Below, in pieces: positions 1,690 through 16,028 of a DNA stretch of 34,455 nt. Position 1 is the first letter of the stretch, and every line of letters begins with the position of its first letter. The notes under the pieces are model-generated. The model saw only the letters and a program-made list of their open reading frames with translations, searched no databases and was not told where the DNA came from. This DNA comes from Thermoplasmatales archaeon (GTDB lineage: Archaea > Thermoplasmatota > Thermoplasmata > Thermoplasmatales > Thermoplasmataceae): NCBI GenBank assembly GCA_014874365.1, contig JACWAH010000013.1, positions 1-34,455 on the forward strand, written 5' to 3'. Made by a program: the position numbers and the translations under genes.

Positions 1690-3324
1690 ATGCTAGGAGG
1701 ACAGCCAATTTTCATATTAAAAGAAGGAACGAAACGCGAATCAGGCAAGGATGCCATGCAGAACAACATTGAAGCTGCAAAGGCAATTTCGACGTCTGTA
1801 AGATCTACGCTTGGACCAAGGGGAATGGACAAGATGCTCGTTGATTCCCTCGGTGACATCGTAATCACAAATGATGGAGTAACCATACTCAAGGAAATGG
1901 ATGTAGAACACCCAGCTGCGAAAATGATGGTTGAAGTGTCCAAGACACAGGACAGTTTTGTTGGAGATGGAACAACCACTGCAGTAATTGTGGCCGGAGC
2001 ACTGCTTGCTGAAGCAGAGAGCTTGATAAAACAGAACGTACATCCAACAGTCATTGCGGAAGGATACAGGATGGCTTCTGCACAGGCTAAGAAGGTATTG
2101 CACGACATTGCGAAACCTGTCAAGATTGATGATAAAGCCCTTCTTACGAAGATGGCTGAAACGGCACTCAGCAGTAAGAGCGCCTCCGGAAGCAAAGTAA
2201 AGCTGGCGGAAATTTCCTATGAAGTAGTCAAAAGCGTAGCCGAAAAGACCGACAACAAATATTCAGTTGATTTCGACAACATACAGTTCGTCAAGAAGAA
2301 AGGCGGAGAGATAGACGACACTGAACTCATCTATGGTATAATAGCAGACAAGGAAAAAGTCCATCCGGGAATGCCGGATTTCGTGAAAGACGCAAAGATT
2401 GCGCTTCTTAACGCTGCGTTGGAAATCAAGAAGCCTGAATTCGACACAAACATCAGAATCGATGACCCTTCAATGATTCAGAAGTTCCTGCAGCAGGAAG
2501 AATCGATGCTGAGGGATATGGTAAAGAAAGTCAAAGCTACTGGGGCGAATGTGTTGATCACCCAGAAAGGTATTGACGACCTGGCACAGCACTTCCTTTC
2601 CAAGGAGGGAATATACGCTGTAAGGAGAGTCAAGAAGAGCGATGTAGAGAAAATTGCAAAGGCAACAGGAGCGACTATCGCAAGTTCAATAGATGAATTA
2701 TCTTCGTCAGATCTAGGATTCGCAGCACTAGTAGAGCAGAAGAAAATCGACGAAGACTACATGACATTCGTAACCGGTTGCAAGAACCCCAAGGCCCTTA
2801 GCCTGCTTATAAGGGGAGGCACGGAACATGTAGTCGACGAAATTGAGAGATCGATCACAGATTCAGTTCATGTTGTTGCTGCCGCAATCGAGGACGGAAA
2901 ATACACATCCGGAGGCGGATCATCTGCTGCGGAGATTGCATTTAGGCTTGGCGAATTTGCAAAGAAAGTGGGAGGAAGACAGCAACTCGCAATTGAGAAA
3001 TTTGCCAACGCAATGGAGGAGATACCCAGAGCCCTTGCTGAAAATGCTGGCCTAGACCCTATCGACATCCTCATAAAAATCAGGAGCAAGCATGCAGAAG
3101 GCCAGAAGTACCACGGGATTAACGTTTACGACGGCGAAGTTCAGGACATGATCAAGGCAGGAGTAATAGAACCCATCAGAGTCGGAGAACAGGCAATCGA
3201 GTCTGCAACAGAAGCAGCAGTAATGATCCTGAGAATCGATGACGTTATAGCAACAAGATCCGGATCCAAGGGGCCAGGAGGAGGAATGCCTCCAGGCGGC
3301 GGAGAAGGCGGTCCGGAAGACTAA
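1690..3324 (+). CDS. ths: Thermosome subunit (group II chaperonin)
   Basis: This 544-residue protein is a full-length archaeal chaperonin subunit, which assembles into a double-ring ATP-driven protein-folding cage in the cytoplasm. Seen in the sequence: the N-terminal [12 protein letters not shown] motif (residues 41-52), TNDGVTIL (60-67), the nucleotide-binding GDGTTT (92-97), and the C-terminal Gly/Met/Pro-rich tail ending [14 protein letters not shown]. Length is normal for the family. The ATG at 1690 fits the family N-terminus and the TATA-like box 30 bases upstream. The gene stands alone, with a hairpin and T-tract directly after its stop. Many archaea carry two or more subunits; which paralogue this is cannot be said from this window. 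Confidence 0.97.
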
Positions 3325-7185: not shown

Positions 7186-7506
7186 ATGACTTGGTACAAA
7201 GTTCTCAAGGAAGACGCACTGAAGGATTCGGACATTTTCAAGGTCAAGGCTGGATCGAAGGAACTCATAGTTATGAAAACAGGAGGGAAGTTCTACGCAA
7301 CTTCCTTTTTGTGTACACATGAACAGTATGACCTGTCGGAAGGATTCATAGACGACGGGAACCTCATCTGTCCCAATCATTTTGCGATCTTCAAGCCCCA
7401 GGATGGTACAGTAGTGAGCAACCCTGAAGGATCTGGAGAAATAGGATCACTTGAATCCTACAAAGTCAAAGTGGAAAACGGCGACGTTCTCGTAGAAGTT
7501 GAATGA
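7186..7506 (+). CDS. Rieske-type [2Fe-2S] ferredoxin
   Basis: This small soluble Rieske protein carries electrons through a His2Cys2-bound [2Fe-2S] cluster. All four ligands are present: C43 and H45 in CTHEQ, C62 and H65 in CPNH. At 106 residues it is the size of dioxygenase-type ferredoxins, and it has no N-terminal membrane anchor, unlike the Rieske subunit of cytochrome bc complexes. The last four bases (ATGA) overlap the start of the EtfBA gene, so translation is probably coupled. The natural inference is that it exchanges electrons with the flavoprotein. A decayed paralogue lies at 14842-15072. Confidence 0.93.
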   Translation: MTWYKVLKEDALKDSDIFKVKAGSKELIVMKTGGKFYATSFLCTHEQYDLSEGFIDDGNLICPNHFAIFKPQDGTVVSNPEGSGEIGSLESYKVKVENGDVLVEVE

Positions 7507-9221
7507 AGATACTTGTATTCGTCAAGCAGATACCTGACATCAGCAAAGTCAAGCGGGATCCGGCTACCAACAGGATCGTAAGGGAAGGGGTTCCACTTCA
7601 GATCAATTCTTTTGACAAGAAAGCAATCGAGGAAGCAGTAAGGATTAAGGAACGATCCGGTGCAGAGGTGATAGCTGCTAGCATGGGACCGCCATCCGCG
7701 ACTGAAGTTCTCATCACCTGCCTGAAATTTGGCGCAGACTCCAGTTACCTGATATCGGACAGGAGGCTGGGGGGGTCTGACACATTGATAACTTCAATGG
7801 CCCTCTCTGCATTCGCAAAAAAGATCAAACCTGATCTGATTCTGTGCGGAAAATATTCACTGGACGGGGAAACATCCCAGGTCCCACCAGAAATTGCGGT
7901 ATTTCTTCAATATAACTTTAAGTCATCCGTTTCCAGGATTGACTTCAACGAAAACAGGGTGACTGTAACTCAGGACATGGAGACAGGATTCCTTACCTCG
8001 GGAACTTCCCTGCCGCTTGTGGTATCGGTCAGCGAGAAAATTAACAAGGCAAGATTCATTCGCCCTGGCGGGCCAGATCTTTCAGGTAAAATAACTACGG
8101 TGGACATGGATTTCCTTGGCATCTCTCTTAATGGTATACAGGACTCACCAACAGTTGTCTATGGAACAGAAAATGTGGAGAGCAGGAGGAACAATGTATT
8201 CATAGATGACCCGGATGAATTCATTTCAAAGATACTCGCAGAAAAAGGCAATTCCACGCCTGTAGAAGAAACGGTTGAGATTAATGGAATCGAAGATCTG
8301 CCGGAGAATGCAGGGGAAGCCTGGATTATTGCACTGGATAATCCAAGGACTGTTAAAGAAATTTCCAGCAGGGTGGCCGAACTATCAGGCCGGAAGAGAA
8401 AACTAAAAATCATCGGGAACCTTGAAGCAGATGAAATTAAGGGTTGTTCAGCGCACGAGTACATCAAGCTGGATACAAACTCAATTTCTTCAATTGCAGG
8501 TTATCTGGTTGAGAACATACTTACTGAAAAACCGGAATTTGTGATCTTTCCTTCTACGGTAAACGGTAGAGACATCGCCTCTTTTGTTGCCGCAAAGCTG
8601 AAACTGGGTCTGACCGCAGACTGCGTTGACCTCAAAATGGAAGATGGCAAGTTGATCCAGTATAAGCCGGCATTCGGAGGTGGAGTGCTTGCAAAGATAT
8701 ATTCGAAGACGCAACCAGCTCTTGCAACAGTGAGGCCTGGAATATTCAAAGCTAAAAACTGCAGGAACAAAATTGAGGTTACCGAGGTAAAGCTGAAAAA
8801 TGAACCTGATATGCAATTCGAAGGCATTCCGGAAACTTTCTTGCCACTAAATGATCGTCAGGTCGTTCTGGGGATAGGAAAAGGAATTATCTCCAAGGAA
8901 AATGTACCAAGAGCCTTGGAATTAGCCGACCTGCTGGACGCTTCAATAGGAGGAACAAGACCCATTGTGGATCTGGGCTGGCTGCCAAGACAGCAGCAGA
9001 TAGGATTGACCGGTGCTAGCATATCGCCGGCAGTATACATTGCACTGGGTATATCAGGGCATGATAACCACGTGGTTGGGATCAGGTATGCAGGGAAGGT
9101 TTTTGCAGTTAACAAAGACAGGAATGCCCCTATATTTTTGTATTCAGATTATGGCTATGTCGGAGACTCAATGGATTTTCTGGAAAGATTTATCCAAACT
9201 CTGGGCAAATCTAATAACTGA
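7503..9221 (+). CDS. Fused electron transfer flavoprotein EtfBA
   Basis: The protein joins ETF beta (roughly residues 1-250) to ETF alpha (roughly 270-572) in one chain. The beta part opens with MKILVFVKQIPD and keeps NSFDKKAIEEAVRIKE, which in ETF beta lines the AMP/FAD side. The alpha part has the C-terminal FAD-binding signature with GLTGASISP, YIALGISG, HVVGI and FAVNKD. ETFs move electrons from acyl-CoA and other flavoprotein dehydrogenases to the respiratory chain. Fused ETFs are known in archaea. The usual ETF-quinone oxidoreductase partners (FixC, FixX) are not in this window; the coupled gene is instead a Rieske ferredoxin. The 3' end overlaps the convergent membrane-protein gene by 11 bases. 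Confidence 0.93.
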   Translation: MKILVFVKQIPDISKVKRDPATNRIVREGVPLQINSFDKKAIEEAVRIKERSGAEVIAASMGPPSATEVLITCLKFGADSSYLISDRRLGGSDTLITSMALSAFAKKIKPDLILCGKYSLDGETSQVPPEIAVFLQYNFKSSVSRIDFNENRVTVTQDMETGFLTSGTSLPLVVSVSEKINKARFIRPGGPDLSGKITTVDMDFLGISLNGIQDSPTVVYGTENVESRRNNVFIDDPDEFISKILAEKGNSTPVEETVEINGIEDLPENAGEAWIIALDNPRTVKEISSRVAELSGRKRKLKIIGNLEADEIKGCSAHEYIKLDTNSISSIAGYLVENILTEKPEFVIFPSTVNGRDIASFVAAKLKLGLTADCVDLKMEDGKLIQYKPAFGGGVLAKIYSKTQPALATVRPGIFKAKNCRNKIEVTEVKLKNEPDMQFEGIPETFLPLNDRQVVLGIGKGIISKENVPRALELADLLDASIGGTRPIVDLGWLPRQQQIGLTGASISPAVYIALGISGHDNHVVGIRYAGKVFAVNKDRNAPIFLYSDYGYVGDSMDFLERFIQTLGKSNN

Positions 9222-9810
9222 ATCGTACGGCCCTGTGGTTCCTGGTTCTCTCCATATACTGAAGAGATAGACCCAGTAAAAATGTGGCTGCAGCTATTAC
9301 CTGCGCTGCTGTGCTATTCATGCCAGCAGTATAAAGGGCAAACCACATGAGCAATGCACCAATGACAGCCGCAAGAACATTCGTGATTCTATCATATAAC
9401 GCATAGGCAATTACGAAAGTTACCAGTCCTGCAATAACATCATACAGAAAATTAGGATAAATTACCGTCCCAACCAGATAAATAAGAAAGGCAATTACCG
9501 CCGGGAGTGCAATATGCACCAGGCCCTTAACAAGTACTGCCCCAGCGACCGCCCCAATGACAAGTATCAGGTAAAGCGGCAGGGAAGTTCCTGTAAAATC
9601 CTTGGAAAGATAGAGCGAAAAGACAACGCCAAAATATGCACCAACCATCATCAGAAGAGTTTTCCACGCAAAGGAACCCTTGAAGATCAGGAAAACCGAG
9701 ACAAGCACAATGAGCACTGTAGAGAGATACAAATATGGGGCTGGTAAAAAGTCAAAGATCTTGGATAGTCCTCCGGAATATTGAGTCAGGACAGTGAGGA
9801 GGTCAGACAT
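9211..9810 (-). CDS. Polytopic membrane protein of unknown function
   Basis: The 199-residue product is almost entirely hydrophobic, with about six or seven membrane segments (for example LYLSTVLIVLVSVFLIF, LPLYLILVIGAVAGAVL, VLAAVIGALLMWFALY). It ends in a short basic tail (QYMERTRNHRAVRFSY). I recognise no transporter signature. The small residues in the helices recall small integral proteins of the TMEM198/DUF4203 type, but that is only a resemblance. It converges on etfBA with an 11-base overlap at the 3' ends. The ATG at 9810 is the first start after the intergenic region. Confidence 0.75.
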   Translation of the reverse strand: MSDLLTVLTQYSGGLSKIFDFLPAPYLYLSTVLIVLVSVFLIFKGSFAWKTLLMMVGAYFGVVFSLYLSKDFTGTSLPLYLILVIGAVAGAVLVKGLVHIALPAVIAFLIYLVGTVIYPNFLYDVIAGLVTFVIAYALYDRITNVLAAVIGALLMWFALYTAGMNSTAAQVIAAATFLLGLSLQYMERTRNHRAVRFSY

Positions 9811-10661
9811 TAGTAAGACATCGTTTTAACTGTATATAAACATTGCTTCGCACGTGCCTCTGGAACATAATTATTCCGCCATTTAGTGCCCCTCCTTGTT
9901 TTTCGTGACTTTTACATTGCTCTCTTTCTGATGCACCTTTCGGTAATTTCCTTTTTTTCGGTACTTACGCATCAAATGGTAGACTCAGAATCACCAATGG
10001 CTCTCTGCTAGGATACCTCTTTCCCTTCGGGATATCGTGCTCTCGTCGAACTTTTTCTCACTTCAGAGAAGGCTCTTTACGAGGCTGGCCATCACACGCC
10101 GTAATGATCCTGGTCTACCCATTCCATGTATACTAGACATTGTATTTGCGTATTGCTCCCCGCCGGCATTTTGATCTCATCCCGATTTATAGAGTTCCTC
10201 GATCCGTACAGATATACTGATGAACTCCTTCCCCCTTGCCTTCGAAACTAGGTTCCCTGTTCTCCCGAATGCGATACCACATGCCTGAATAGTCCGAATA
10301 CTTTGGAATCAGCTTTATTGAGAATATCTTCCATTCATGAGCATAACTTCCAGAATCTCGATTTTTGTTCAATTAATTAAGAAAAATGTAAAAATGCATA
10401 AGAAAGCAGTGTTTTCCTTCGCTTTTCTCTGTTTTTCCAGGGAAATATTGAAAGCTTTCGCTCTTCATGTATGATTTTGATTGAATGAAGAGTGTACGCA
10501 AATCATGCGAACATGAATTTCACCCTCACCTTTCGTAAAAGGGTGACCGTCACATGGAAGAAGTGGAATATCCTCTTCATCACGGATATGAGTATTCCAC
10601 CATTGATCTTTTCCTTGAGATCTAGGGGTTTCCCCTCACTGACTCAATGGATAGTTTATGA
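9811..10661. other. Gene-poor accessory DNA, no supported gene
   Basis: About 850 bases have short frames only. One minus-strand frame at 10187-10372 (61 codons) reads with plausible composition but matches nothing I know and may be a relic. Two inverted repeats were seen: CTCTTCAT (10461-10468) with ATGAAGAG (10485-10492), and CACCCT with AGGGTG around 10518-10548. Neither clearly marks an element end. Together with the transposase relic just downstream, this looks like decayed mobile DNA. Confidence 0.5.
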
Positions 10662-10877
10662 TCCCTCACCGCATATTACAGGATATTGAAGCTGCTGAAG
10701 GCAAAAAAGATCAACAGCAAGATAAGCGTCAGGGATGCACTGCTGCAGCTTTCAAAGATATACCTAATGGACGTCGGTTACCGAACAATAATGGCAGAGA
10801 TACCGAAGAAAGTCAGGGGACTTGCAGAGATACTGGATCTAAAGTCAGATCAGTTCCCTAAAAGTGTGCCGAGTTAA
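10662..10877 (+). pseudogene. C-terminal relic of a DDE transposase
   Basis: After an in-frame TGA at 10659-10661, the frame reads through to TAA at 10875-10877. It encodes AYYRILKLLKAKKI, then ISVRDALLQLSKIYLMD, then MAEIPKKVRGLAEIL. This tyrosine-rich strand, leucine-rich helix and EIPKKV tail resemble the C-terminus of archaeal IS4/IS1634-type transposases. No catalytic residues or upstream portion remain in frame, so it is a fragment. Its C-terminus differs from that of the relic at 12110-12880, so two different elements are probably represented. The identification rests on remembered family pattern, not a search. Confidence 0.5.
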
Positions 10878-10954
10878 GGCTGTATTTTCAATAAGAAATA
10901 ATGTAAAAAAAGAATATTTTAATGACGATAGATTCCCCCCATTGTAACTATAAC

Positions 10955-10969
10955 AATATTTATATTATA
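10955..10969 (+). promoter_or_regulatory. TATA-like box of the 10987 gene
   Basis: AATATTTATATTATA is centred about 25 bases before the ATG at 10987, the expected position for a leaderless archaeal gene. Confidence 0.55.
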
Positions 10970-10986
10970 GACAATGATACACATGC

Positions 10987-11442
10987 ATGGACAACACAAT
11001 AACATTTACAAAAGATGGAATAAAGGTGAGAGAGACTGTTTCAAATCCGCTGATTCCAAACACAGAAAGGCAATCCATTGTTACATACGATAAAATAACG
11101 GAGTATAACCCACTTGACATTCATGTTGTCGGAATTGTTCCCAGAGTTGTTGACGGAACATTGAAAGAGATAGAGTTCAGACTTGGGGATGAAAGTGATG
11201 TTTCCTTTCATGATTTGGTTTGGTTCAAGTCTAAGGTTCCTGAAATACTTGCAGATGGAAAGGAGTGGAAAAAGGAAAGCATATACAAGAAACTGGAGCC
11301 GCAATTTAATCCATCCGACTATAAGAGATTGAAAAGTGGAGGGGCAAGAGGCTATGCCAACTTAACTACGGCACTGAACATGTTAAAGAAAGAGGATGTT
11401 CTGGAAAATCCAAGAAAGGGTATGTGGAAGTTAAGGAAATGA
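10987..11442 (+). CDS. Hypothetical protein with probable C-terminal winged-helix
   Basis: The 151-residue protein is not recognised as a whole. The C-terminal third (ANLTTALNMLKKEDVLENPRKGMWKLRK in outline, residues about 123-151) has the shape of a winged helix-turn-helix: recognition helix, then a basic wing ending in W-K-L. The middle has a hydrophobic strand (LDIHVVGIVPRVV) and an acidic segment. It has its own TATA-like box and lies 91 bases upstream of the RelE-type toxin on the same strand. It could therefore be a local regulator or an atypical third component of that locus. That link is inference from position only. It sits among transposase relics in accessory DNA. Confidence 0.7.
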   Translation: MDNTITFTKDGIKVRETVSNPLIPNTERQSIVTYDKITEYNPLDIHVVGIVPRVVDGTLKEIEFRLGDESDVSFHDLVWFKSKVPEILADGKEWKKESIYKKLEPQFNPSDYKRLKSGGARGYANLTTALNMLKKEDVLENPRKGMWKLRK

Positions 11443-11533
11443 GTATTTTCAGAAGTTTAGTTATGTTCCAGTCTTATGGTTTTGTTCTCGTAGTTTTGTC
11501 GCATCGAGACGATCATATGCGGTCTGGTGTAGG

Positions 11534-11794
11534 ATGGCGTATTCCGTAAAATCCACTGATGCATTCGAAAAGGAATTCTCCAAGAATCACAGAGACAAGA
11601 AGGAATGGTTACTTCGCATTGTTGAGAGATTGGAACAGGAACCACAGTCAGGAAAGCCATTGAGAGGTAAACTTCACGGGTTATGGCAGCTGAGGATAGG
11701 CTCTTTCAGAGTGTGGTATGAGATAAATGATGAAGAAAAGAAAGTAACGCTCAGAGCCATCCTTCACAAGGACGAAGCCAAGAAGTTCTATTAG
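11534..11794 (+). CDS. RelE/ParE-family toxin
   Basis: The 86-residue protein shows the family pattern along its full length: AFEKEFSKN near the N-terminus, helix RIVERLEQEP, then PLRGKLHGLWQLRIGSFRVWYEI (residues about 42-64 in outline), then a strand TLRAILHK. RelE-type members cleave mRNA on the ribosome and ParE-type members target gyrase; the sequence here does not decide between them. The usual His-Arg-Tyr end is replaced by LHKDEAKKFY. No antitoxin frame was found directly upstream. The probable antitoxin lies downstream on the opposite strand, overlapping by four bases, which is unusual. No clear TATA box was seen at the right distance. Confidence 0.85.
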   Translation: MAYSVKSTDAFEKEFSKNHRDKKEWLLRIVERLEQEPQSGKPLRGKLHGLWQLRIGSFRVWYEINDEEKKVTLRAILHKDEAKKFY

Positions 11795-11964
11795 AGTTCC
11801 TTGAGAAACTCTCTTACGCTTCTGACCTTGCCTTTTTGTATGTCCTGTTCACTTCTTTCCAGCTGGTCCATGACATACCCATTTTCAAGAGTCTCAATGG
11901 TGGCCTCAATGCTATCCAGATCAGATTTAGGTATGCTTACAAGTCTAGATTTGGTTGTAGTCAT
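11791..11964 (-). CDS. Probable RelB-like antitoxin, convergent with the toxin
   Basis: A 57-codon minus-strand gene starts at ATG 11964 and ends at TAA 11791-11793, inside the last codons of the toxin. The protein begins MTTTKSRLVSIPKSDLDS, giving a short DNA-binding-like strand-helix. It ends with EQDIQKGKVRSVREFLKEL, the acidic-then-basic helix pattern typical of RelB-type antitoxins that wrap RelE toxins. A TATA-like TATTAAAA and a palindrome lie upstream. A normal locus would have this gene just before the toxin on the same strand. The tail-to-tail order means the two are transcribed separately and their mRNAs can pair at the 3' ends. Antitoxin identity is a pattern-based call. Confidence 0.7.
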   Translation of the reverse strand: MTTTKSRLVSIPKSDLDSIEATIETLENGYVMDQLERSEQDIQKGKVRSVREFLKEL

Positions 11965-11985
11965 TATGCATACTCATATACTTTT

Positions 11986-12009
11986 AGATTTTAATACCTT
12001 TTGGTATGC
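11986..12009 (-). promoter_or_regulatory. Antitoxin promoter with palindromic operator candidate
   Basis: On the minus strand TATTAAAA (11988-11995 region) sits about 27 bases before the ATG at 11964. Directly upstream of it and touching it is the palindrome ATACC-TTTT-GGTAT at 11994-12007. A GTATGC at 12004-12009 is mirrored by GCATAC at 11968-11973 near the start codon. A palindrome on the TFB/TATA site fits autorepression by the antitoxin or toxin-antitoxin complex; that role is inferred. Confidence 0.45.
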
Positions 12010-12109
12010 TCTATGGCGGAAATCGACTGTCATGATTATGTCCAGAAGCCATCCTGATCGATTCGCTGATTGATCTATTCATTGATCCTATCTTTGCCCT
12101 ATTGTATCA

Positions 12110-12880
12110 CTACAATTCAATTAAAGTCTTTTCGAGCAGTGATTTCTGATCCTTTGTGAGTTCCACATGTGCATGTGACCCATTGCTGTAAGCGACTTCC
12201 TTTATTCCTGAAAGGATTCTTTCAGTCTCTGCATAGACAAATTGCACCTGTGAGCGATCATCCTCATCATGGAATATCCAAGGATGGAGGGGAATATCCC
12301 TGTCCTTGTCCCTTCCTCTGTTCTTGCATACACCGGTTGCATGGATGACCTGGAATGCATGAAAGCTTTCTCCATCACATCCTTCCCCTTGTATATCCTG
12401 AGTATCTCATCCGCACCGATCATGGTATTCGTGAATAGGACAAAGAATCCCATCCTTCCTGTTTTCGCCTGTATGGCATTGCGTCTCAGCCTGTATGTGA
12501 ACGATCCTTACGATGCTCTTAGGTCGAAGTACCTGGCCATGTTTCTTGCTGCAGAAATTGCAGTGTGCATCCTATCCTGAGCCGAATGCCTTGCCCTAGA
12601 GGGCCTTCAGATCTCTTTCCTTGTCCGATATACTGGAATAGAATGCCTGCATCCTGTCTGCCCTGCTCTGTACGGAGAAGTACACAACATATCGCAATGA
12701 GTCAATGTGGTGGCTCGTTACCGTTCTTTCTTGGCTGTTCTTTCGAATTCGCTTTATTGATCTCGCAGGATTATGATTCAAATAGCTGATTGCAACGCTA
12801 GAAGAATGTTCGTATACGGGCAGAACACAATTCCGATCCATAGCATCCCCATTGATCAGTACTGGAAAGTGAACCATAAT
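12110..12880 (-). pseudogene. Decayed DDE transposase (C-terminal half)
   Basis: Several minus-strand frames give consecutive pieces of one transposase. 12877-12596 contains RYVVYFSVQSRADRMQAFY and SSISDKERDLKAL. 12590-12202 contains GFFVLFTNT, MIGADEILRIYKGKDVMEKAF (the region with the catalytic Glu of the YREKD/IE type) and PVYARTEEGTRTGIF. After a frameshift near 12205, the C-terminus reads LSGIKEVAYSNGSH and ends at TAG 12110-12112. At least one internal TAA (near 12510) and two frameshifts break it, so it is inactive. The pattern matches IS4/IS1634-like archaeal elements. No terminal repeats were identified. Confidence 0.7.
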
Positions 12881-12923
12881 AATCTGGTGAAAACATATTC
12901 ATCAAAAAAATTAAAAGTTGATT

Positions 12924-13880
12924 CTATTCGCCGTTAGAATTTTGGTGACTGGAGCCAACCATGGAAAGGAATAAGGACTCGAGATCGGTTTTTTCCTCGT
13001 TGCACGTGAGCAACATGGAGTTATTCCTGATTGCAATAGAAGCGAGGTCGACCCTAATGTCTCGTGTTCCTGCTACCTTAATAGATATAGTATTCGGATT
13101 CTCGCTCGAAACTTTTACATTATCCACATTCTCCAATTTTCCAACCTCGTCTAGAATACTTTTATCCAGGCGACTGAACTCAGCCGTAAATGTACCAGCA
13201 AATTGTGACCTCTTCAGCAATTTTTCAGTCTCCCCCTCAACTAGATCCCGCCCCTTATCAATAATGGTAAGGGCTGTACAGACCTTTTGGACATCATGAA
13301 GCTGATGGGATGAAAGTAAAATCGTTCCACCCTGTTTCGCAATATTAACGAGTACTTTCCTCAGGCCTTCTGCAGCAACCGGATCCAGCCCTGAGGTGGG
13401 TTCATCCAGTATGAGTAATTCAGGCTCCCCGAGCATAGCGGTTCCTACACCAAGCCTGGCCAACATTCCCCTGCTGTATTTGCCCACTTTTCTGTTGCCC
13501 GCTTCTTCAAGTTCCAGGAGATTCAAAATTCGTGTTGCTTCATCCCCGCCGGTTTTAGAAGAGAGTCCGCGCATTTTACCATAAGTAACTAGAATTTCCT
13601 TCCCGGTAAAAAATGGGGGATATGCAGGAAGCTCCGGCGAAAAACCTATCTTAAGTTTGGTCAATGGATCCTCATAGGTGAGTTCTTTTCCAAAAACCAT
13701 TATAGAACCGGAATCTTTTCTCAGGAGGCTCATAATACACTTCATTGTGGTGGTTTTTCCGGCCCCGTTCACTCCAAGGAACCCATGCAAAGTGCCCGTT
13801 TTCACGATCATTGATACGTCGTGAACACCCACCAAAGGGGAATACATCTTACGGAGGTGATCTATCTTCAGTGCTTCCAT
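12924..13880 (-). CDS. ABC transporter ATP-binding protein
   Basis: This 318-residue cytoplasmic ATPase powers the permease encoded just upstream. Motifs in order: Walker A GVNGAGKTTT (residues 36-45), a Q-loop region near FSPELPAYPPF, a variant signature KYSRGML in place of LSGGQ, Walker B LLILDEPTSGLDP, and the H-loop LSSHQLHD. A C-terminal extension of about 100 residues after the ATPase core is common in ABC-2 exporters of the CcmA/NatA type. The ATG at 13880 is four bases after the permease stop, so the two form an operon. The substrate is unknown; drug, lipid or peptide export are typical for this class. Confidence 0.95.
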   Translation of the reverse strand: MEALKIDHLRKMYSPLVGVHDVSMIVKTGTLHGFLGVNGAGKTTTMKCIMSLLRKDSGSIMVFGKELTYEDPLTKLKIGFSPELPAYPPFFTGKEILVTYGKMRGLSSKTGGDEATRILNLLELEEAGNRKVGKYSRGMLARLGVGTAMLGEPELLILDEPTSGLDPVAAEGLRKVLVNIAKQGGTILLSSHQLHDVQKVCTALTIIDKGRDLVEGETEKLLKRSQFAGTFTAEFSRLDKSILDEVGKLENVDNVKVSSENPNTISIKVAGTRDIRVDLASIAIRNNSMLLTCNEEKTDLESLFLSMVGSSHQNSNGE

Positions 13881-13884
13881 GATA

Positions 13885-14742
13885 TCATCCCTTTACCTCA
13901 CTTCGTCGAAACAGGAAATAGCCAATAAAGAAAAAAATCACCAGATCAATTATGGTTCCGGTGACAAGATATGGGACAATAGTTGAAGTTGCTATTGTAT
14001 ACTGGGTGGACTTTCCAGGGGATATGAAGGGGAGAGTAGTGATTCCAGAAGGCGCCTGAATATAGTTGGAAAAGCTCAACATTATCAAATCAGTGTTGAT
14101 GAACGGTACGAAAGCCAGAAAGAGTTTAAATCCATAGTACTGGATCGCCTCTAGTGTTCCCAGAACAATTGCCAGGAATATTCCCAGCAGAATTCCAAAG
14201 GTTAATCCGGGGGATTTCGCAACACTACCTATGAAAAAGGAAATCGCAACAATAGACAACAGCAGAAGAGAGAAAATCAGGACAACGATCGGAAACCATA
14301 TCAAATAATCCTGCCCTCCGGCAGACAGGGATGCAGAAATCACAGCTGATGCCGTTACTGCTATTGATATCAGAACTGCGACTAATGTCTTCTCAAGGTA
14401 CTTACCCAAATAGACCTCTGATCTCGTTGCCGGCTGAGACGGCAGCGAGGTAATCGTTCCCTTGTCAAATTCCCAGGCTATTGAATCCGATGATATGATT
14501 CCACTAAGAATAAGTGGAAAGATACCAGAAACAAAACCGGTGATTATGGTATTTATAGCCCCAATCCACCATATATCTGCACTAATTCCAAGATTGGTTT
14601 TCCCGGATACAAATGGAGCGACATAACCAATGGAAAATGTTAGAACTATCGCGAAAAGTACCACGATTAATACTCTCACTTTCTTTGTGTCAGACTTAAA
14701 TTCGTAAGATGAAATAGCAAGAATCCTTTTGATAGACAGCAA
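13885..14742 (-). CDS. ABC-2 type transporter permease
   Basis: The 285-residue protein has about six membrane segments: one after a short basic N-terminus (VLIVVLFAIVLTFSIGYVA), then a cytoplasmic part containing SIAWEFDKGTITSLPSQPATRSEVYLGK in outline, which is the conserved ABC-2 region, then further helices. It partners the ATPase encoded immediately downstream. No ATG or GTG is available: an in-frame TGA lies directly before TTG at 14740-14742, so TTG is the likely start. No strong TATA box was found, and the upstream 100 bases separate it from a decayed Rieske paralogue. Confidence 0.9.
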   Translation of the reverse strand: MLSIKRILAISSYEFKSDTKKVRVLIVVLFAIVLTFSIGYVAPFVSGKTNLGISADIWWIGAINTIITGFVSGIFPLILSGIISSDSIAWEFDKGTITSLPSQPATRSEVYLGKYLEKTLVAVLISIAVTASAVISASLSAGGQDYLIWFPIVVLIFSLLLLSIVAISFFIGSVAKSPGLTFGILLGIFLAIVLGTLEAIQYYGFKLFLAFVPFINTDLIMLSFSNYIQAPSGITTLPFISPGKSTQYTIATSTIVPYLVTGTIIDLVIFFFIGYFLFRRSEVKG

Positions 14743-14841
14743 TCAAGTCACCAGCTTATTACGACAGATTTCAAAAGAGGCGCACCACCTGAAACATCAC
14801 GTGAATACTTACCGCATTGACGCAGACATTTTGAACATAAC

Positions 14842-15072
14842 CTAAATTTCAACCAGAATCGCCCCGTTTTCTATCTTTGCTTCATAAGATTTGAGTGCGG
14901 AAACTTTTCCAGGAGCTTCAGGCCATTCAACCACTGCTCCATTTGTTGGATTGAACTTTGCAAAATGATTAGAACATATAAGGATGCCATCTTCGATCAC
15001 CCCTCCTGAAAGATCACTTTGTTCATGCGTACGGCGACCAGACATTTTATATAATTTTCCATTAACTTTCAT
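14842..15072 (-). pseudogene. Truncated Rieske paralogue lacking one cluster cysteine
   Basis: From ATG 15072 the 76-residue frame aligns with the complete Rieske protein at 7186-7506; by hand I count about 42 identities in 76 positions. The alignment begins at Met30 of that protein, so the N-terminal strands are missing. The first cluster cysteine (C43 there) is Arg14 here: codon CGT at 15033-15031, one transition away from TGT. His16, Cys33 and His36, the other three ligands, remain. A normal [2Fe-2S] Rieske cluster is therefore unlikely. The frame has no internal stop, so it could be a recent pseudogene or a repurposed cluster-free domain. Its ATG overlaps the stop of an upstream relic as TGATG. 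Confidence 0.75.
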
Positions 15073-15322
15073 CAAATTAATTCCGTTCCCCCTATTTCAG
15101 CTTTTAGTATTTTACCTTTTTCCAGGGCCCTTTCATGACCCACTTTGCGCCATACCATGGATAGGGCATGCAGATCCTGCCACCTGTCAGGGAAACGTTC
15201 CTGCAGTCTTGCAATGATATCTGCAGATAAAGATTACAGCAAGGCTGAATTGCCGTATTCGTATATTGACCCTGCCTCCTTTGCATCCCCGTTTATGCAG
15301 TCATGTATACACAGCCATGCAA
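15072..15322 (-). pseudogene. Probable N-terminal transposase relic
   Basis: One minus-strand frame reads from about 15322 to TGA at 15074-15072 with a single internal TAA at 15236-15234. It encodes AGSIYEYGNSALL, stop, SADIIARLQERFPDRWQDL and HALSMVWRKVGHERAL. The pattern EYG, then a helix, then FPDRW, then an ALSMV-R helix resembles the N-terminal region of IS1634-like archaeal transposases. There is no plausible start codon at the 5' end. It could be the missing front half of the relic at 12110-12880, but the central catalytic region is absent between them, so a simple split is not supported. Confidence 0.45.
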
Positions 15323-15551
15323 ATTCTCAAGTCAGCTTTCCGTTGTTACATTTACCGCGCACACTAACCTCTTATTGCAGCCAAATAATGGCTTATTATC
15401 AAAGTGTGTTCTTAATTATCTACGCGTATCCACCCAATGTGAATGTGTATAAGTCCATGAAGCTGTTCAGAGATGTGGAGCAGATAACCGCAGGTCAACT
15501 ATCAGCTCCTAAAGGTTTACAAGGGCTCCTGCGGAAATCATCGCCCTTATC
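15323..15551. other. Intergenic stretch, no gene seen
   Basis: Nothing coding is supported here. A plus-strand open frame from 15145 to 15591 crosses it but has erratic composition and runs against the recognised relic and Nob1 frames. No RNA gene or clear terminator was found. Confidence 0.5.
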
Positions 15552-16028
15552 TCATTCCTTGCTTGATGAAAGGTATCGTTTTGTTTCGTGACCGCATATG
15601 GGACATATCTTCGTGGTAACCTCCCTTCCGCATCCACTGCACTTGTAGACCCACTTTAACTTCTTAGAAATCCCTTTCTTCTCAACGCTTTCTGCCTTAA
15701 TCCCCATGAACGAACAAACATTCAGTACGGAATAATCATCCGAGAGAACAGTTCCCTTAACCTCATATCCCAGTGCAATGACATCAATATCCGTATTTGA
15801 AAGGAATCGGAGATCACCAGATTTTTGTGCAGCTTCCTTTGCAACTGCCTTGGCGTCCCTGGATGGAGAACGTATCTCGAGGCTGTCTCTTATCTCTTCT
15901 ATTAAGCCGGCGAGCCTTCCTGTCTTGATTTCGTCCAGGACGGAACCAGTTGTTGCAACATTCCCAGAGAGCAGGTTTACCTTTCTGGAAAGTATTGCTC
16001 CCGTGTCCAAAATGTAGAGATCGGTCAT
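15552..16028 (-). CDS. nob1: rRNA maturation endonuclease Nob1 (PIN domain plus zinc ribbon)
   Basis: Nob1 makes the final cut at the 3' end of 16S rRNA during small-subunit maturation. The N-terminal PIN domain begins LYILDTGAIL, with the first acidic metal ligand at D8, continues with an acidic SVLDEI, and ends near TDIDVIALG and VLSDDYSV. The C-terminus has a zinc ribbon with CSGCG and CPICG. At 158 residues it matches archaeal Nob1. Its ATG overlaps the stop of nnr by four bases (ATGA), placing it last in a minus-strand operon with SOD, Ogg and Nnr. Confidence 0.95.
   Translation of the reverse strand: MTDLYILDTGAILSRKVNLLSGNVATTGSVLDEIKTGRLAGLIEEIRDSLEIRSPSRDAKAVAKEAAQKSGDLRFLSNTDIDVIALGYEVKGTVLSDDYSVLNVCSFMGIKAESVEKKGISKKLKWVYKCSGCGREVTTKICPICGHETKRYLSSSKE

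Follow-up and report, generated by a model that had tools for sequence, protein, structure and literature searches.

Insertion-sequence-associated pseudogenes are a known class in bacteria and archaea. With regard to Rieske-type [2Fe-2S] proteins, both Cys ligands are reported to be indispensable in the archaeal ferredoxin ARF for the assembly and/or stability of the cluster (PMC2946596). In acidophilic Acetobacteraceae, a study of the bc1 complex describes a loss of Rieske ligands, with a structural role proposed for the proteins concerned (PMC10715153). Among the family Rieske ferredoxins, which include the gene at 7186-7506 of the DNA analysed here and those of three other genomes of the genus (G001, G002 and G003), most are followed by a gene for a fused electron transfer flavoprotein (ETF). 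In addition, the Rieske ferredoxins of ring-hydroxylating dioxygenases (PDB 1fqt, 2qpz and 3dqy) are among the closest solved sequence relatives of both Rieske copies discussed below, although those proteins differ in being intact and in acting as partners of oxygenases.

The window, that is, the whole stretch of 34,455 nucleotides that was analysed, contains an intact Rieske ferredoxin gene with all four ligands at 7186-7506 (+), used here as comparison copy, whose end is overlapped by a fused ETF gene at 7503-9221 (+). It also contains a second, broken Rieske gene on the opposite strand, in which the first ligand Cys is replaced by Arg (hereafter, the Arg copy). With its two halves joined, the Arg copy resembles the family Rieske ferredoxins in length, in domain and in three of the four ligands, with 33-52% identity; unlike them, it has a broken frame, an Arg in place of the first Cys, no adjoining ETF gene and a transposase fragment in place of its 5' side. 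From insertion-sequence-associated pseudogenes it shows no material difference, being a broken gene joined to transposase debris within a species-specific insertion.

Specifically, the C-terminal part of the Arg copy maps to 14842-15075 (-) and consists of 77 codons followed by a stop. It aligns without gaps to the intact gene, with 42 of 77 residues identical (55%), and on its own it matches the Pfam Rieske profile PF00355 with 30.1 bits (gathering score 20.3). The first ligand codon reads CGT (Arg), compared to TGT (Cys) in the intact copy, and the other three ligands are present. Cys occupies this place in all 45 aligned rows, the full CxH...CxxH pattern is found in 51 of 51 other Rieske rows, the intact copy among them, and none of these 51, read residue by residue, carries an Arg there. 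The Arg copy thus lacks one of the four ligands (CxH plus CxxH) that a functional Rieske [2Fe-2S] protein requires. Since the Cys ligands are essential in ARF (PMC2946596), by analogy a [2Fe-2S] cluster is not expected in the product of the Arg copy.

Three-frame translation upstream of the C-terminal frame gave MVWRKVGHERALEKGKILKAEIGGTELI at 15158-15075 (-), followed by a TGA; MVWRKVGHERALEKGKILKAEIGGTELI aligned to MTWYKVLKEDALKDSDIFKVKAGSKELI of the intact copy with 13 of 28 residues identical. This N-terminal part of the same gene, lying in another frame (15072-15158, minus strand), comprises 28 codons and then the TGA at 15074-15072, which overlaps by one base the ATG at 15072 of the downstream C-terminal frame. 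When the two halves were joined, with an X at the break, the Pfam Rieske score rose from 30.1 to 44.1 bits and the match covered profile positions 2-87 of 88. A comparable result was obtained by tblastx against the loci of the three genus mates, in which the abutting segments 15158-15075 and 15075-14845 matched consecutive stretches of one intact Rieske gene in all three cases. Homology to the Rieske domain is therefore evident from the profile scores, while no single open frame of the Arg copy holds the complete domain. The rise in score upon joining points to a gene of nearly full length that has suffered a frame change, close to 15075, and the loss of a ligand.

These data agree with a preliminary description of the window, made from the letters alone, in its identity of about 55% to the complete Rieske protein, in the Cys-to-Arg change at the first ligand and in the retention of three of four ligands. 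Its statement that the frame has no internal stop holds for the C-terminal frame only and fails for the whole gene, whose N-terminal half ends in TGA. The N-terminal strands, which it took to be gone, are present directly upstream at 15158-15075 (-), in a different frame.

On the 5' side, the Rieske reading abuts a fragment of an IS1634-family transposase with a stop inside (15146-15296, minus strand), corresponding to residues 62-109 of a 469-residue frame. These residues are encoded by positions 15296-15153, and over 15284-15146 the DNA is 89% identical to a copy in another genome (G019). The family was assigned by NCBIfam (135.1 bits, cut-off 100), with Pfam DDE_Tnp_1 as the matching domain. 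The match to the transposase ends at 15153 at the protein level and at 15146 at the DNA level, within the first two to four Rieske codons, and the ATG of the Rieske reading may itself be derived from the transposase. Because transposase sequence lies immediately upstream of the Rieske start, the native promoter and leader of the broken gene are probably gone.

The Arg copy and the transposase fragment are both contained in an insertion of about 5.7 kb (9811-15551, no strand assigned) between the genes at 9214-9810 and 15552-16028. In G001, G002 and G003 the homologues of these two genes adjoin each other, the matches being roughly 50 to 310 bases apart, and the gene order is Rieske, fused ETF, 9214-9810 homologue and 15552-16028 homologue (the G002 contig stops inside the last of these). 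The insertion is thus absent from the same site in all three genus mates. When the insertion was compared with the genus-mate loci, blastn (E 1e-3) gave no match for its DNA, and tblastx (E 1e-4) gave the Rieske match only.

Further transposase debris is present in the insertion. The decayed 3' part of a transposase at 10653-10874 (+) is related to the 15146-15296 element and represents a different copy (35-41% identity). At 12084-12712 (-) lies the decayed 3' part of a different IS1634-family transposase, covering residues 328-529 of a 529-residue frame; it contains stops and frame changes, is 85.5% identical at the DNA level to a G019 copy and was also assigned to IS1634 by NCBIfam. The position of the Arg copy beside transposase relics, as earlier proposed, is accordingly borne out, both directly upstream and elsewhere in the insertion. 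The idea that the transposase pieces flanking the Rieske-ABC block are one element split by its cargo was rejected, since the two IS1634 pieces belong to different elements: their intact relatives share 28% identity over 101 residues, and neither intact transposase matches the piece of the other in the window (with matches considered to E 0.01 in one of the two comparisons).

Between these pieces, the insertion also carries an ABC transporter ATPase gene (12924-13880, minus strand) and an ABC-2 type permease gene (13885-14742, minus strand), both with intact frames, the latter lying downstream of the broken Rieske gene in the place where an ETF gene would directly follow. ATPase and permease genes homologous to this pair (12924-14742) are adjacent in four of five relative loci (G017, G020, G015 and G016), with 27-48% identity. 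An orphan frame of 151 residues at 10987-11442, among the transposase relics, gave a weak match to Mrr_N (E 1e-4; 22.7 bits, below the gathering score of 29.5).

The search for relatives of the Arg copy covered increasing taxonomic distances. Within the family, a Rieske match was found in 66 of 77 genomes (E 1e-5), and nothing except the Arg copy itself exceeded 55% identity, so that the copy was seen in one genome of 77; such non-conservation is expected of a pseudogene. G001, G002 and G003 each gave a single Rieske match at E 1e-5 (the G002 genome being only 62% complete). In the order, a search of 117 genomes with the joined query (65 with a match at E 1e-10) returned none but itself above 52%. 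Of 300 genomes in the class, 48 gave a match at E 1e-8, and of 389 in the phylum, 24 did so at E 1e-16; the former contained nothing closer to the Arg copy, and the latter nothing closer than the genus and family members. No close relative was found among viral contigs and phages. Twelve plasmid records matched, the best 10 of the 12 being bacterial sequences with 34-38% identity, and genome contigs gave one 15-residue match of 80% identity, in Oceanobacillus.

The divergence of the Arg copy from the intact gene is concentrated at third codon positions. Differences at positions 1, 2 and 3 number 25, 17 and 47 in the C-terminal part (77 codons) and 14, 9 and 20 in the N-terminal part (28 codons). 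The comparison of synonymous and non-synonymous change with the complete gene, proposed in the preliminary description, gave by NG86 a dN of 0.359, a dS of 2.994 and a dN/dS of 0.12, which, with dS near saturation, averages the whole path and is silent on the last part of the branch. Six defined ratios for pairs including the Arg copy ranged from 0.10 to 0.18, dS being undefined in 5 of 11 such pairs and in all 10 pairs formed by the intact copy and a relative. Hence dN/dS was set aside as a test of current selection. The third-position excess and the ratio of 0.12 nevertheless fit a late death of the gene, and because the coding signature is found in both halves, now in different frames, the break looks young relative to the divergence.

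Apart from the frame break, no stop occurs within the 105 codons of the two halves. In simulations of neutral change started from the intact gene, the probability that 105 codons stay free of stops was 0.56, 0.33, 0.14 and 0.03 at 0.05, 0.1, 0.2 and 0.5 changes per site, respectively; as this probability falls with the amount of change, only a fairly recent death sits comfortably with the data. Where a column is conserved in 90% or more of the rows, the Arg copy is changed in 10 cases out of 35. Twelve control rows were compared in this way: seven of them are changed at 0 to 2 of 35-36 such columns, and five distant, apparently intact ones (G091, G012, G021, G036 and G061) at 8 to 14 of 37-38. 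Except for the lost ligand and the broken frame, then, the Arg copy looks like a diverged gene and not like a rotted one.

All together, we consider it very probable that the Arg copy is an ordinary pseudogene of a Rieske-type [2Fe-2S] ferredoxin. Compared to intact homologues, it bears lesions of an inactivating kind (the frame break, the ligand loss and the transposase as 5' flank), and these three features, taken together, support the earlier suggestion of a gene caught early in decay. Counting against a pseudogene are the 105 codons without a further stop, the intact state of the adjoining ABC genes, and a change at conserved columns no greater than that of the five distant controls. A sequence that is diverged but not rotted would also be expected of a working gene with assembly errors, and this is the main rival. 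According to it, the organism itself would lack the break and possibly the Arg codon, and the gene would encode a second Rieske ferredoxin in working order; the bias among codon positions in either half and the small number of lesions would fit a gene that works or worked until recently, and in a genome assembled in 26 contigs the frame break may be an error. However, such an error would have to account for two independent lesions as well as for the 5' junction with a decayed transposase fragment, the Arg copy is without the usual ETF partner, and the neighbouring transposase pieces bear stops of their own. On balance, this explanation appears unlikely, and from the sequence we infer that both lesions are real and that the Arg copy makes no working ferredoxin.

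Alternatively, the locus could have been kept as a Rieske domain devoid of a cluster and serving some other role, through the downstream frame alone or through translation coupled across the TGA/ATG at 15074-15070. The one base shared by stop and downstream ATG is in line with coupling, and the Rieske proteins with lost ligands proposed as retained in Acetobacteraceae (PMC10715153) make the idea not absurd, though unsupported here. It is, however, at variance with the restriction of the copy to a single family genome, with a downstream frame deprived of the N-terminal strands of the fold and with a transposase remnant on the 5' side. The preliminary description had left room for a domain kept without its cluster, and had raised the prospect of an Arg conserved in relatives; the 51 other rows contain no such Arg and no relative among the genomes searched exceeds 55% identity, so that the proposal gains no positive support and strikes us as very improbable. 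More speculative still would be a Rieske fold made as two coupled polypeptides and acting as a redox-dead partner or decoy for ETF, to which we attach hardly any credence. A different history of the locus, namely a recent tandem-type duplication of the 7186-7506 gene in this genome followed by fast decay, is highly unlikely. Both copies do lie on one 34 kb contig, and in a phylogenetic tree the grouping of the Arg copy with all four genus genes was not rejected (AU p 0.458); its grouping with the nearby copy alone, however, was borderline (AU p 0.051). Moreover, the genus-mate orthologues are 79-81% identical to the intact gene, compared to 55% for the Arg copy at near-saturated dS, which argues against a recent local duplicate unless change was very fast. 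The highest identity in the tree set (52% over 104 columns) belongs to a gene from another genus (G098), hardly above the rest.

The Rieske alignment comprised 46 rows, 6 of 52 having been left out (G084c, G061b, G036b, G081b, G137 and G165), and for the second of two trees, in which these groupings were compared, four further rows were omitted (G012, G021, G036 and G061). In the first tree, the end branch of the Arg copy measured 0.71, compared to a median of 0.074. At this divergence, the Arg copy is unlikely to be a recent duplicate of the 7186-7506 gene, and its sequence would fit either an old paralogue or a gene gained from elsewhere. Of the mobile-element-linked duplication suggested earlier, the link to mobile elements holds, in the form of a species-specific insertion with transposase debris, while a recent duplication is unlikely.

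For the pseudogene, we propose that a diverged Rieske gene, whether an ancient paralogue or an acquisition from elsewhere, was brought along with, or left behind in, an insertion of this species that is rich in mobile elements. The bias among codon positions in the two halves suggests that purifying selection acted on it during the greater part of its history. Subsequently, in whatever order, a transposase fragment would have taken the place of the DNA preceding the gene, a change of frame would have split it in two and its first Cys ligand would have become Arg. The consequence is mostly one of annotation: neither the name of a second Rieske protein nor that of a cluster-free paralogue suits the locus, which marks an insertion, specific to this species, of debris from mobile elements between genes that adjoin each other in the genus mates.

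The more useful observation concerns the intact Rieske gene and its fused ETF partner, a pairing that recurs across the family. In 23 of 29 relative loci, each examined with about 1.5 kb on either side, the Rieske gene has an ETF gene directly downstream; this count excludes locus L026, where the ETF match is on the opposite strand and away from the Rieske gene. We found no paper joining Thermoplasmatales, Rieske and electron transfer flavoprotein. The recurrence suggests that the intact-type Rieske protein is an electron carrier working with ETF, and in this genome the pair at 7186-9221 presumably does the work. In one relative locus (L009, from G013), a second ETF-like stretch (34-35% identity) flanks the Rieske gene on its opposite side, and one genome (G084) has three Rieske matches (L049, L050 and L051), one of them very distant. 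Elsewhere in the window, the gene content, with a thermosome-like protein at 1690-3324, reads as that of an archaeon.
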